DNA of 64,000 nt from Mitsuokella jalaludinii DSM 13811 (GTDB lineage: Bacteria; Bacillota; Negativicutes; Selenomonadales; Selenomonadaceae): positions 372,001 through 436,000 of the forward strand of contig NZ_JNKR01000001.1 of assembly GCF_000702905.1 (NCBI RefSeq), written 5' to 3'. Both the position numbers and the translations under genes were made by a program. The notes beneath the pieces were generated by a model, which had not been told where the DNA came from, did no database searches, and saw only the letters and a list, made by a program, of their open reading frames with translations. Below, piece by piece: positions 49,563-58,628 of this stretch (within the stretch, counting starts at the first letter, position 1; each line of letters begins with the position of its first letter).

Positions 49563-50855
49563 TCAGAGGCTGCCCTTCATGATGGCGTTCGTCTTCTCGA
49601 TGCACTGATGTGCCTTGTCGATGGAGAGGCCGAGCGTGCGCATGATCTTGTCCGGATTGTGGAAGCCCATGCCATTTTCAGCGGCGACCCAATCCCAGTA
49701 CCACTGCGCTTCGCGGACGAGCTGACGCGGCTCTTCGAGCTGTTCATCCGTCGCACCGGCATCCATGGCGGCCTTGATGGTCTTGTGGGCCTGTGCAACC
49801 GTCTTGCCAGCGATGCGCTGGAGCTTGAAGGTGTTGTCGCCGATCGTCTGGACGCGCGCCTTGAGCGTCTCAGCGCTCTCGTCGTGGCACTTGAGGCACG
49901 ACTCTTCCGTCGTCTTCAGCGGGTTCGTCATCCAATGCGAGGTGTACTTCTGGCCGTTCTCTCTCATGTACGGCATATGGCAGTCGACACAGGTGACACC
50001 GGCGTCAGCGTGGACGCTCGTCGCCCAAGTCTCGAAGTCCGGATGCTGTGCCTTGAGCATCGGGGCCTTGGAATCTGCATGGATCCAGTCCTGCTTGAAG
50101 GCACCAGCCTGACCGGACTGATAGAACTCATACTCCGACTCCGCATCGAGCCCGTTGTCAAACGGATGGTTGACGCGGCCGTCTTCCTTCGTGAAGTAGT
50201 ACTCATTGTGGCACTGTGCGCAGACGTAAGCGCGCTTGTCGTTGTGCGAAGCGTTGTTGACATCGATGCCGCGGCGGGCCATCGAGTCGATGAAGCCCTG
50301 CTGGTAGACGCGCAACTCCATCGTCTCCGGATCGTGGCACGTCGAGCAGCCAAACCACTGGTCGTCCTCAATGGGTGCCATGACTTCGTCGATCGGCTTC
50401 GAGGCGTAATCCCAGCCGCTCTGCTTGTAGTAGACATCGTACATGTACGAGCTCTTGCAGGTGATGCAGTTGCCCTTCTGGCCGGGCAGGCGCTTCGTGT
50501 TCTTGAAGTCCTCGCCTGCGTACGTGTGACCGCGGTCATCATCATACTGGAGCGCAAACTTGTAGCCCTTGAAGTTCTCGACCATCTCCGGCTGTTCCGT
50601 CAGGTGCGAGTTCTCCGCCTGGGCACCGCCGTACCCCGTCGGCGACGGCGAAGTGTCATTGTTCTTCATGAACGAATTGTACTCGAGCGGATAAGCTTCC
50701 TTATAGGCTTCCTTGCCGAGCTGTTTGTCCTGGGGAATCTTAGCGAGCTTGACACTCGTGTCGTTCGGTGCCGCGACGATGCGGACGACGACAAAGCCAA
50801 AGAATACAACGCAGACAGCTATGATTCCCGCCAATATCTTCTGTAGCTTACTCAA
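49563..50855 (-). CDS. nrfA: Pentahaem cytochrome c nitrite reductase
   Basis: Reduces nitrite to ammonium with six electrons, outside the cytoplasmic membrane. The 430-aa protein has an uncleaved or signal-type hydrophobic start (residues 7-28) and five haem motifs in the correct order: CITCK (the active-site haem with Lys), CSTCH, CAQCH, CVDCH and CLKCH. The start is TTG at 50853-50855 with AAGGGGGG upstream; it overlaps the nrfH stop by 8 bases. It matures through the Ccm system encoded upstream. Confidence 0.96.
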   Translation of the reverse strand: MSKLQKILAGIIAVCVVFFGFVVVRIVAAPNDTSVKLAKIPQDKQLGKEAYKEAYPLEYNSFMKNNDTSPSPTGYGGAQAENSHLTEQPEMVENFKGYKFALQYDDDRGHTYAGEDFKNTKRLPGQKGNCITCKSSYMYDVYYKQSGWDYASKPIDEVMAPIEDDQWFGCSTCHDPETMELRVYQQGFIDSMARRGIDVNNASHNDKRAYVCAQCHNEYYFTKEDGRVNHPFDNGLDAESEYEFYQSGQAGAFKQDWIHADSKAPMLKAQHPDFETWATSVHADAGVTCVDCHMPYMRENGQKYTSHWMTNPLKTTEESCLKCHDESAETLKARVQTIGDNTFKLQRIAGKTVAQAHKTIKAAMDAGATDEQLEEPRQLVREAQWYWDWVAAENGMGFHNPDKIMRTLGLSIDKAHQCIEKTNAIMKGSL

Positions 50856-51336
50856 CTTTTATCCCCCCTTCGAGATGGTTCGAGCCATGTGCGATACTGC
50901 TGTGGCATTTGAGGCAGTCGCCGCCAGTATCCATACTGACACCGACGTCAGCGTGGACACTCCCCATCGTCGTCTGATGGCAGCGCAGGCAGTTGTCGTT
51001 AACCGTCTGTCTGCCCTCAGACGAGATCTTTATGTTCGCCGGATAGTCGCGCAGCACTTCATGATACGTGTCGATCATGCCCGTGCGCCCCTTCTCGAAC
51101 ATGTAGTGCACAGCATTGTCGTGTGGCAGGTGGCAGTCCGTGCATTCCAGCGCACGATGCGAAGACATCGCAAAGGTTGCCGCCTCTCCTTTCATCGCAT
51201 GGCACGACCCGCAGAAGGCCGGCGATCCCGAGAAGGCCATGGCCGCTGAGCCGATGCCGCAGACCGCCACGCCGATGACGAAGCCGCCCGCCAGGCAGGC
51301 CAGCGTGTGTTTCTGAAACAATTCCTTGAACTCCAC
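50848..51336 (-). CDS. nrfH: NrfH, tetrahaem quinol dehydrogenase of nitrite reductase
   Basis: Membrane-anchored NapC/NirT-type cytochrome of 162 aa that passes electrons from menaquinol to NrfA. One helix (residues 12-34) is followed by CGSCHAM, whose Met is the usual ligand of haem 1, and three more CxxCH motifs (CTDCH, CLRCH, CLKCH). The start is GTG at 51334-51336 with GGAGGGG upstream. First gene of nrfHA; its promoter overlaps the terminator of the ccm operon. Confidence 0.95.
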   Translation of the reverse strand: MEFKELFQKHTLACLAGGFVIGVAVCGIGSAAMAFSGSPAFCGSCHAMKGEAATFAMSSHRALECTDCHLPHDNAVHYMFEKGRTGMIDTYHEVLRDYPANIKISSEGRQTVNDNCLRCHQTTMGSVHADVGVSMDTGGDCLKCHSSIAHGSNHLEGGIKVE

Positions 51337-51387
51337 TCTGCTCCCCCTCCTCTCTTCCTGCTTTCTTACTCTGCCTTATTTGCACTC

Positions 51388-51437
51388 ATTATATCATGAT
51401 GAGAAAAAGCAAGGCGTTGCCCGAGCAACGCCTTGCT
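51388..51437 (-). promoter_or_regulatory. nrfHA promoter with palindrome at -41.5
   Basis: Extended -10 TGATATAAT (TATAAT at 51388-51393, minus) with no -35. The palindrome GTTGC-N4-GCAAC at the heart of the hairpin 51408-51437 is centred at 51422.5, 41.5 bp upstream of the predicted start. Confidence 0.7.
51403..51437 (-). terminator. Terminator of crp-ccmABCEF
   Basis: Perfect 13-bp stem (51408-51420 with 51425-51437), loop CCGA, followed by five T on the minus strand. It doubles as the putative regulator site of nrfHA. Confidence 0.88.
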
Positions 51438-51461
51438 AAATATTGTTTATTTTTCTATAAC

Positions 51462-53594
51462 TCACTTTGATGAATGCATGGCGCGCATGGCCAAGAAGCA
51501 ACCGAGCGAGGCGGCGATGGCACCGATCCAGAGCAGGTAGATGAAGGGCTTCGTGCTGACGGAGGCCGTCACGGCAATCTGCGCTTCTTCCTCAGCCGAC
51601 GGCAGGATCTCGAGGCGCGCCTGCGAGTCGTTGCCGGAGATGCCCGTCAGGCGGATGCGCTTCTGGCCGCCGAAGACGGGAACAGGCGTCGAGGTGCCGC
51701 CGTCGCGTGTCGCGATGATGGTCGGCTGTGCGTGCTCGACCGTCTCACCGTCCGTCACGGCAATCGTGGCCGTCACGAGCATCGTGCCGTCCGGCTGGTT
51801 CTCCATCGTGACGTCGTCATAGCGGTAGGCGAAGATGTCGCCCATCTCCATGCGGCCGCGCTTGAGGAGGAGCTCCATGCGGCCCGTGTCCTTCGGCGGT
51901 GTCGGCGCGATGTAGATATCGCCCGTGAGCGTGTGGGCGATGGCCGGTTCGCGCGCGGCATCCTCGCCATTCTTGTGGAGCTTCGTCATGGCGCGCGCCT
52001 CGCTGCCGTCGACGCGGTAGCAGTAGTACTTCATCGTGCCATCCTCGGCGAAGGCCTGGCCCTCATACGTGACCGTGTGGTCGGCGATCTCTGCGCTCGC
52101 GCCGGTCTTGAACTCCTGCGAGAGCGACTGGCTGGCACCGCCAGAGAGCACCATCGCGAAGAGCGCGAGTGCCACGCCGCCGTGCGCAATCACCGCGCCA
52201 AAGCGCAGCAGATGGCTGCGCCAGCTGATGAGCGTCTCGCCGAGGAGCAGAATGGAGACAGCTGCGAGCACAAGCAGCCCCGGGGAGCGCACGCCTGCGA
52301 GAAACGCAAGTGCAAAGCCCAGCACGGCCAGTACGGCAGGCACGACCTTGCCCTGCGGCTCCGCCGGCTTCCCGTAGCGCAGGCAGGAGCCGACGGCCAT
52401 GACGAGGCACATAGCGATGGCCAGCGGCATGGTCGTACGCACATAGAAGTCCGTATCGACGGCGGCCGGCTTGCCGATGAGCTGCGTGAAGAGCGGCATC
52501 GACATGCCGATGAAGATGATGGCGGCGATGAAGACGAGCACGAGAGCGCCCAGGAGCAGGCAGAACTCACGGCTCGCATAGTCTTCGTAGACCTTGCCCT
52601 GCGGCAGCTTGCCCGCCTTGAGCGCGAGCAGCACGAGGCCGCCGATGAGCACGATGGCATTGACGACGGCCAGCGTCATGCCGATGCTCGTGCCGCTGAA
52701 CGAGTGGACCGAGAAATCGCCGAGGATGCCGCTGCGCGTCAGGAACGTGCCGTAGATGACGAGCGCGAACGTGAAGATGACAGAAAGGTGCAGAACGGAC
52801 AGCGCCGCAGGCCGCCTTTTGGCGACGTGCAGTACGTGGACAAACGCCCCCGCGAGCAGCCACGGCACGAGCGAGGAGTTCTCGACGGGGTCCCAGCCCC
52901 AGTAGCCGCCCCAGCCGAGCACCTTGTAGGCCCAGTAGCCGCCGATGAAGACGCCGGCGCCGAGGAAGCCCCAGGCGAGCAGCGCCCAGCGGCGCGCCGA
53001 TTCCAACCAATTTCCCTTTGCCTCATCCTTGAGCAGAGCGCCCATCGCATAGGCAAACGGCACGGCCAAGAGCGCGTAGCCGATGAAGATGATCGGCGGG
53101 TGCACGGCCATCCACGGGTCCTGCAGCAGAGGATTGAGGCCGACGCCGTCCTGCACGGCCGTCGCCGAGGCCACGAAGGGGCTCTTGGCCAGCACGAGGA
53201 TGACGAGCAGCGACTCGAGGGCGGAGTAGACCGTGAGCCCCGCCGCCGTCATGCGCTCCCTGCCGCAGAGGTACAGCGAGGCCAGCGCGTGGATGAGCAG
53301 CCAAAGGAGCAGCGACCCCTGCTGCCCGGCCCAGAAGGCCGAGATCTTGTACATGAGCGGCAGTTCTCTCGACGAGTAGCTCGCCACATAGGCGATCTCG
53401 AAGTGGTCGCCGAGGATCATCGCCCAGAGATAGATAGAGGCGACGACAGCTGCCAGGCACGCGCCCAAGAGCGACCACCGGCCCCAGCGCCGAGCCCTGT
53501 CCTGCTCCTCCTCGACCTTCATTGCATAGCCGTAGGCCATCGCGGCCAACAAGGCGAAAAACAGAGATGTTGCCAGAGATATTGTTCCAATCAT
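51462..53594 (-). CDS. ccmF: Cytochrome c haem lyase CcmF
   Basis: Membrane protein of 710 aa that joins haem from CcmE to apocytochromes. It has about 15 helices, the tryptophan-rich WWD haem-handling motif GGYWGWDPVENSS near residue 240, and conserved His positions (HPPIIFIGYA near residue 165). A large soluble domain of about 170 residues precedes the last helix. It is longer than E. coli CcmF (about 650). No ccmH gene is nearby. ATG 53592-53594 follows GGGGGAT. Confidence 0.93.
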   Translation of the reverse strand: MIGTISLATSLFFALLAAMAYGYAMKVEEEQDRARRWGRWSLLGACLAAVVASIYLWAMILGDHFEIAYVASYSSRELPLMYKISAFWAGQQGSLLLWLLIHALASLYLCGRERMTAAGLTVYSALESLLVILVLAKSPFVASATAVQDGVGLNPLLQDPWMAVHPPIIFIGYALLAVPFAYAMGALLKDEAKGNWLESARRWALLAWGFLGAGVFIGGYWAYKVLGWGGYWGWDPVENSSLVPWLLAGAFVHVLHVAKRRPAALSVLHLSVIFTFALVIYGTFLTRSGILGDFSVHSFSGTSIGMTLAVVNAIVLIGGLVLLALKAGKLPQGKVYEDYASREFCLLLGALVLVFIAAIIFIGMSMPLFTQLIGKPAAVDTDFYVRTTMPLAIAMCLVMAVGSCLRYGKPAEPQGKVVPAVLAVLGFALAFLAGVRSPGLLVLAAVSILLLGETLISWRSHLLRFGAVIAHGGVALALFAMVLSGGASQSLSQEFKTGASAEIADHTVTYEGQAFAEDGTMKYYCYRVDGSEARAMTKLHKNGEDAAREPAIAHTLTGDIYIAPTPPKDTGRMELLLKRGRMEMGDIFAYRYDDVTMENQPDGTMLVTATIAVTDGETVEHAQPTIIATRDGGTSTPVPVFGGQKRIRLTGISGNDSQARLEILPSAEEEAQIAVTASVSTKPFIYLLWIGAIAASLGCFLAMRAMHSSK

Positions 53595-53651
53595 ACGATA
53601 AATCCCCCATGGATTGCATTCAGGTTGCATCGAAATTGCCTGCAGGCCGCT

Positions 53652-55974: not shown

Positions 55975-56655
55975 TCACCTCTCCTCGCGAAGCCGCGCCT
56001 CGTCGAGCTTCATCCAGTCCGGGCCGCATTCAAGGAGCCCCTTCTCCTTCATCAGGCCGATCTCGCGCGTCAGGGCGCTCCTGTTGCACTCGAGCTCCTT
56101 GGCGAGCTGCACGCGGCCCGGCACCTTGACGCAGTCTGCCTGCTGGCGGCTCATCTGCTGCAGCAGGTAGAGGATCAGCCGCTCGCGCAGCGTCTTCTGC
56201 GAGAGCACCTCGAGCTTCTGCATCATCAGCACGTTCTTGCGGCAGAAGGCCACGAGCAGGTTGCGCATGACGATGCCGTGGATGCGGCCGAGCCTCGGCC
56301 CGGCCACGATGAGCGCCGTGTAGGGCACCCAGAGCACGAGGACATCCGAGACGGCCTCGATGGCCGTCGGGTTCGCGTACTCGGGCAGGATGGCCGTCGT
56401 CGAGCCGAACAGCGCCCCGCGGCCCAACCGGTGCCCGACCGACTCATTGCCGAAGCGGTCCTCCGCAATGACGAGCGCTTCGCCCTCCGCGATGATGCCG
56501 ATGCGGCTGTTCGCCTCGTACGCCTTGAGGATGCGCATCTCCTTGCCGTAGCGCTTGACCTTGGCCCCCGTCGCCTGGATGAACTGGTCCACCTCGTCGG
56601 CCTTGAGCCCCTCGAAGAGAGGCAACTCCTGCAAGTCCAGATCGTAGATTCCCAT
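55975..56655 (-). CDS. Crp/Fnr-family regulator heading the ccm operon (HcpR-like)
   Basis: DNA-binding activator of 226 aa. Residues 10-125 are the cyclic-nucleotide-like sensor fold, residues about 150-215 the winged helix with KELECNRSALTREIGLMKEKG as recognition part. No cysteine cluster is seen, so it is not an Fnr; haem or another NO-responsive ligand is possible but not shown. It is first in crp-ccmABCEF. Palindromes at its own, nrfHA and hcp promoters suggest control of nitrite/NO genes, like HcpR or NnrR proteins. ATG 56653-56655 follows CAGGAGGG. Confidence 0.85.
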   Translation of the reverse strand: MGIYDLDLQELPLFEGLKADEVDQFIQATGAKVKRYGKEMRILKAYEANSRIGIIAEGEALVIAEDRFGNESVGHRLGRGALFGSTTAILPEYANPTAIEAVSDVLVLWVPYTALIVAGPRLGRIHGIVMRNLLVAFCRKNVLMMQKLEVLSQKTLRERLILYLLQQMSRQQADCVKVPGRVQLAKELECNRSALTREIGLMKEKGLLECGPDWMKLDEARLREER

Positions 56656-56717: not shown

Positions 56718-56768
56718 ATTATAGCAATGAGAAGCGCATAGTGATGTTGCAAGAGCAACATCACTATG
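56718..56768 (-). promoter_or_regulatory. crp-ccm promoter with 14-bp palindrome at -41.5
   Basis: Extended -10 TGCTATAAT (TATAAT at 56718-56723, minus). A perfect inverted repeat, 14 bp per arm with loop AAGA (56737-56768), is centred at 56752.5, 41.5 bp upstream of the predicted start. Its core is TGTTGC-N4-GCAACA. No T-run follows, so it is not a terminator. Confidence 0.75.
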
Positions 56769-58584: not shown

Positions 58585-58628
58585 ATCATAGCAGAAGTCC
58601 TGCGCCCTTTTCTGTAACGATTGTTACA
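58585..58628 (-). promoter_or_regulatory. hcp promoter with TGTAAC-N4-GTTACA
   Basis: Extended -10 TGCTATGAT (TATGAT at 58585-58590, minus) and a perfect palindrome TGTAACGATTGTTACA (58613-58628) centred 42.5 bp upstream of the predicted start. No -35. Confidence 0.75.

Follow-up and report, generated by a model that had tools for sequence, protein, structure and literature searches.

What can a palindrome be when it lies at the end of one operon and at the start of the next: an RNA terminator for the first, a DNA operator for the second, or both? We addressed this question in a 64-kb window (the whole stretch of DNA analyzed) of the Mitsuokella jalaludinii DSM 13811 genome (G000). On its minus strand, the window carries hcp, a CRP/FNR-family regulator gene, ccmA-B-C, a small ORF, ccmF, nrfH, and nrfA, in that order, and a hairpin lies between ccmF and nrfHA. 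A preliminary description of this DNA had proposed that the hairpin is at once the end of the ccm operon and the site of the nrfHA activator. The features discussed below are listed in Table 1.

Table 1. Positions in the window of the nrfHA and crp-ccm features
Feature	Position	Strand	Comment
nrfH, cytochrome c nitrite reductase small subunit	about 50848–51336	-	
nrfA, ammonia-forming cytochrome c nitrite reductase	49563–50855	-	
ccmF/nrfE-type heme lyase	51462–53630	-	final ccm operon gene; the predicted hairpin terminator lies behind it
CRP/FNR-family regulator	55975–56655	-	recognition helix NRSALTRE; predicted to bind GTTGC-N4-GCAAC
nrfHA operator core (putative), GTTGC-N4-GCAAC	51416–51429	-	center at −41.5 of the inferred start; 47 nrfH promoters retain it
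Terminator hairpin (predicted)	51408–51437	-	13-bp stem around the operator core; folding energy z = −6.9 against shuffles; arms covary in relatives
T tract (minus strand TTTTT) 3' of the stem	51403–51407	-	
Extended −10 box of nrfHA, TGATATAAT	51388–51396	-	TG-N-TATAAT nearly invariant in relatives
crp-ccm promoter operator core (putative)	56746–56759	-	22 nt 5' of TATAAT at 56718–56723

The hairpin behind ccmF has the form of an intrinsic terminator

All 13 of the 13 stem pairs are perfect, and they enclose a loop of 4 nt. On the minus strand the hairpin reads AGCAAGGCGTTGC-TCGG-GCAACGCCTTGCT, followed by TTTTTC if the last T of the stem is counted. The minimum free energy of its RNA is −23.7 kcal/mol, compared with −8.5 ± 2.2 kcal/mol for shuffled sequences, and 0/200 shuffles were as good. 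The ccmF stop codon lies about 24 nt 5' of the stem. The element thus has a stable G+C-rich stem, an immediate U tract, and a same-strand gene upstream, which is the form of an intrinsic (Rho-independent) terminator. Stem, loop, minus-strand tail, and the position of ccmF all agree with the earlier claim that a 13-bp perfect stem followed by T5 ends the ccm operon. From the stem, the T tract, and the absence of another terminator, we predict that the nrfHA operator functions as a terminator, with RNA 3' ends predicted at −26 to −22 of nrfHA, beside the −10 box.

The stem core is spaced as in a class II promoter

GTTGC-N4-GCAAC, the core of the stem, occurs twice in the 64-kb window (0.1 expected). 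Both copies lie exactly 22 nt 5' of a minus-strand TATAAT, that of nrfHA at 51388–51393, and their centers are at −41.5 of starts at 51381 and 56711, which are inferred from the −10 boxes. With the start inferred in this way, the N22 spacing from core to TATAAT is that of class II CRP/FNR promoters, and it is found at both window promoters and in almost all relatives. The GTG codon of nrfH is ~86 bp from the operator center. The preliminary description had equated the core of the hairpin with that of the palindrome at the crp-ccm promoter and had centered the hairpin DNA 41.5 bp upstream of the nrfHA start. The first point is borne out by the identical core and spacing, and the second agrees with the start inferred from TATAAT.

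The shared core by itself is weak evidence for a common function because it also occurs in a plain terminator elsewhere in the genome. Genome-wide, the core is found at five places, and TATAAT follows at N22 in 2/5, both in the window. Two of the remaining three copies are ordinary terminators with GTTGCAGATGCAAC that lack a promoter at the right distance, and one is within an ORF. In a 456-kb sample of the M. jalaludinii genome, from which we took terminator base rates, 2/21 perfect terminators with a loop of 4 nt carry the GTTGC core; one of the two clearly does not lie at a promoter. Because any terminator is palindromic to begin with, a shared palindromic core is not very improbable.

We considered a GTAAC or GTTGC core in a terminator as a general mark of an operator and rejected it: one such case is a tRNA-Asn terminator, which carries GTAAC, the core of the HcpR2 motif, and two are plain terminators. 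The plain terminators with GTTGCAGATGCAAC, at L001 near 5001 and L003 near 5001, could be decoy sites for the regulator.

The predicted operator is conserved across Selenomonadaceae, mostly without arms

The pattern GTTGCN4GCAACN20-24TATAAT was found in 92/189 genomes of the family and its reversed control in 0. We examined 59 nrfH loci and found the core in 47 (44 exact, 3 with one mismatch). In those 47 promoters the −10 box stands 22 nt from the core and reads TATAAT, or TATACT in Mitsuokella sp. oral taxon 131. At the loci that lack the site, nrfH is operon-internal, directly behind ccmF or crp, with one exception at a contig edge. Every one of the ten core bases carries at least 1.75 bits in the nrfH promoters, and TG-N-TATAAT is nearly invariant; the left flank is variable, and in the right flank a C is conserved at the third base past the core. 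Pairing arms are absent from most of the 47 core-bearing promoters. Stems that keep their pairing while the core varies freely, which the preliminary description had named as evidence against it, were seen in none of them.

The arrangement of core and TATAAT also precedes the regulator gene in most loci, and nearly all regulator orthologues examined retain the NRSALTRE recognition helix. In g9, g43, and g19, genera that have nrfH and lack a regulator match, the site-plus-TATAAT pattern gave no match. Comparison among genomes strongly supports the predicted position and conservation of the operator.

Seven loci combine a fixed core with covarying arms

Terminator-grade arms with a T-rich tail are present at seven loci: those of the window, Mitsuokella multacida (G002), Mitsuokella sp. 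oral taxon 131 (G018), Selenomonas montiformis (G167), G199, G023, and G203. Their operator hairpins range from −15.4 to −23.2 kcal/mol. When left and right flanks were joined across loci as a flank-swap control, a comparable hairpin formed in 0.8%. Within the seven loci, the ten core bases and their pairs are invariant, and at four arm pairs both partners have changed without loss of pairing; because pairing was the criterion by which these loci were chosen, the percentage paired is biased and part of the covariation stems from the choice itself. The comparison of relatives that had been suggested for this hairpin therefore gives, for the seven hairpin loci, a fixed core and arms that vary with compensatory changes. 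This combination supports the central proposal that the end-of-operon RNA hairpin and the DNA operator are the same sequence.

We compared hairpin loci with core-only loci using a relaxed scan of all loci that also covers bulged hairpins. A separate upstream terminator was found at 29/40 core-only loci versus 1/7 hairpin loci (Fisher p 0.006, uncorrected for relatedness and inflated because the seven hairpin loci reduce to 2–3 independent origins). Parsimony on the NrfHA tree gives three state changes, at least two of which are forced by strongly supported branches; the terminator form appears to have been gained at least twice. The element is best read as primarily an operator and secondarily a terminator, its flanks having been extended into a terminator in some lineages, because the core is kept in 47 promoters, mostly armless, at a fixed distance from TATAAT.

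The element accompanies nrfHA in relatives

The ccmF and nrfH genes of M. multacida lie on either side of a 5-kb insertion, and the hairpin remains with nrfH, behind a transporter gene; DNA similarity to the window picks up again at 51454, past the insertion. The insert (L063 6842–12001, ~5 kb) encodes a LysR-type regulator, a lyase-like enzyme, and a DASS-type transporter, according to translations read by eye. By the same kind of reading, the hairpin follows a peptidase gene in G018 and an MFS-type transporter gene in G203. The element is thus tied to nrfHA and not to ccm, since it ends other genes in these three genomes. DNA similarity of the nrfHA block starts within the hairpin (window 51434) for G167 and G199 and at 51450 for G018. 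NrfH identity is 97–98% among G000, G002, G167, and G199, compared with only 71% for the regulator in G167, which points to transfer of the nrfHA module between lineages. An independent gain of the hairpin in Selenomonas G167 and in G199 was rejected, as their NrfH is 98% identical to that of the window and transfer is likelier.

The preliminary description had placed ccm readthrough and nrf initiation under one element. That proposal stands for this genome and fails as a general rule: a general ccm-nrf device does not fit the relatives, where most operators are armless, a separate terminator is present, and the upstream gene differs.

A model for nrfHA as a self-insulated module

It is very probable that a single stretch of DNA serves as a CRP/FNR-family class II operator and also as an intrinsic terminator. 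We consider it likely that the palindrome serves a class II activator as DNA and acts as an intrinsic terminator in its RNA copy, which would make nrfHA a self-insulated module. In this model, the regulator would bind GTTGC-N4-GCAAC at −41.5 and, together with the extended −10 box, start nrfHA transcription; from an identically spaced site, it would also activate its own crp-ccm operon. The operator flanks of this lineage would have turned complementary, with a T tract beyond. As RNA polymerase moves out of ccmF, the operator sequence in the transcript would fold as an intrinsic terminator a short way upstream of the nrf −10 box, and the RNA 3' ends would fall between operator and −10 box, in an interval not used by the promoter. 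With one sequence serving as activator site in DNA and as upstream stop in RNA, nrfHA could sit behind any gene. We infer the protein-DNA contact at the operator and the efficiency of termination from sequence and, by analogy with HcpR, suppose that the signal of the regulator would be nitrite or NO.

Active coupling would be an addition to this model and not an alternative to it. The bound activator could block or modify elongation out of ccm, or released polymerase could pass to the nrf promoter. The predicted RNA 3' ends beside the −10 box would suit such coupling, as would the presence of the same operator on the ccm and nrfHA operons, but relatives tolerate a separate terminator farther upstream and the upstream gene changes freely; we regard coupling as unlikely. 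Polymerase that remains on the DNA once termination has occurred, and that can slide along it, has been seen in vitro (PMC6978322, PMC6978380). A regulated terminator-promoter relay, in which the operator-bound activator alters upstream termination and the nrf promoter reuses polymerase released at the T tract, is likewise doubtful. If such a relay operated, one palindrome would set the ratio of maturation machinery to enzyme.

The crp-ccm operator bears on whether the nrfHA element is an operator only. Its core lies within a 14-bp perfect palindrome (56737–56768) without a T tract. The arms add 9 pairs beyond the core in G000, 12 in M. multacida, and about 12 in G199, with unrelated sequences and with a separate terminator upstream; a T-rich tail is present only in M. 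multacida. The M. multacida crp orthologue (L063 1700–2376) matches in two pieces in different frames, reflecting a frameshift or an assembly error, and its operator is intact. These arms could come from a palindrome-perfecting mutational tendency or from some use of the structure, and they weaken the inference that the nrf arms serve termination alone. The nrf arms might be a by-product, for example of palindrome-perfecting template switching at an inverted repeat, with termination weak or absent; the crp operators of G000 and G199 have long (near-)perfect unrelated arms, no T tract, and a separate terminator. At nrfHA, however, the arms are accompanied by a T-rich tail in 7/7 loci, usually with no other terminator, and swapped arms were rarely as stable, so that we judge this explanation quite improbable. 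Finally, the element could be a terminator only, its common core a coincidence of palindromes. The base rate of 2 in 21 given above, with one case clearly not at a promoter, speaks for this reading, which is very hard to reconcile with 47 promoters that retain the core, most of them armless, at a constant distance from TATAAT.

Under the dual-function model, this locus would be a natural example of a DNA site for a protein that was converted into an RNA terminator with the site retained, a change that appears to have occurred at least twice. The un-rebuilt form persists in relatives, which offers a clean system for studying the evolution of overlapping DNA and RNA codes. The analysis also predicts a regulon (nrfHA, ccm, and autoregulation) under a CRP/FNR regulator in Selenomonadaceae of the rumen and gut. 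The reduction of nitrite to ammonium by these bacteria matters for nitrogen turnover.

Comparison with known CRP/FNR systems and overlapping terminators

A cNMP-binding-like domain and a Crp-type HTH place the regulator in the CRP/FNR superfamily. Its matches to Pfam PF00027 (E 1e-4) and PF13545 (E 3e-4) are under the curated cut-offs, and it matches PDB 4ev0 over nearly its full length (E 5e-7). The window contains a second CRP-family regulator gene (L170, 45456–46163) with a different recognition helix.

HcpR2, a CRP/FNR-family regulator, recognizes GTAAC-N4-GTTAC and has Pro at CRP position 181, with Ser or Gln in some members, and in Geobacter/Desulfuromonas nrfHA is among the predicted targets of HcpR (Rodionov et al. 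2005, PMC1274295). The regulon described here resembles that of HcpR2 in having a CRP/FNR-family regulator, anaerobic hosts, a 5-N4-5 palindrome, and nitrogen-oxide gene targets. Unlike HcpR2, the regulator has the predicted motif GTTGC-N4-GCAAC in place of GTAACnnnnGTTAC; a hand alignment of NRSALTRE puts Ser at CRP position 181. We read it as related in type to HcpR2, with a regulon that is probably not the same. The HcpR2 motif GTAAC-N4-GTTAC is present at 58614–58627, upstream of hcp, and a separate protein, L171 (G000:C21), has a Pro-181 helix that fits the GTAAC motif. This suggests that hcp may be under a CRP/FNR protein (candidate L171) other than the one proposed for ccm and nrfHA. 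We found no description of the GTTGC-N4-GCAAC motif or its regulon in the literature searched.

Class II CRP/FNR-dependent promoters have an activator at −41.5, no good −35, and an extended −10. The nrfHA promoter shares all three features and differs in that its operator DNA would double as the stem of the terminator of the upstream gene. Our literature searches on terminator/operator overlap yielded nothing directly comparable. DNA uptake sequences are reported to occur in intrinsic terminators (PMC1852404), and to that extent the two cases are alike: the stem is made from sequence conserved for another reason. At nrfHA this reason would be the activator operator of the next promoter.
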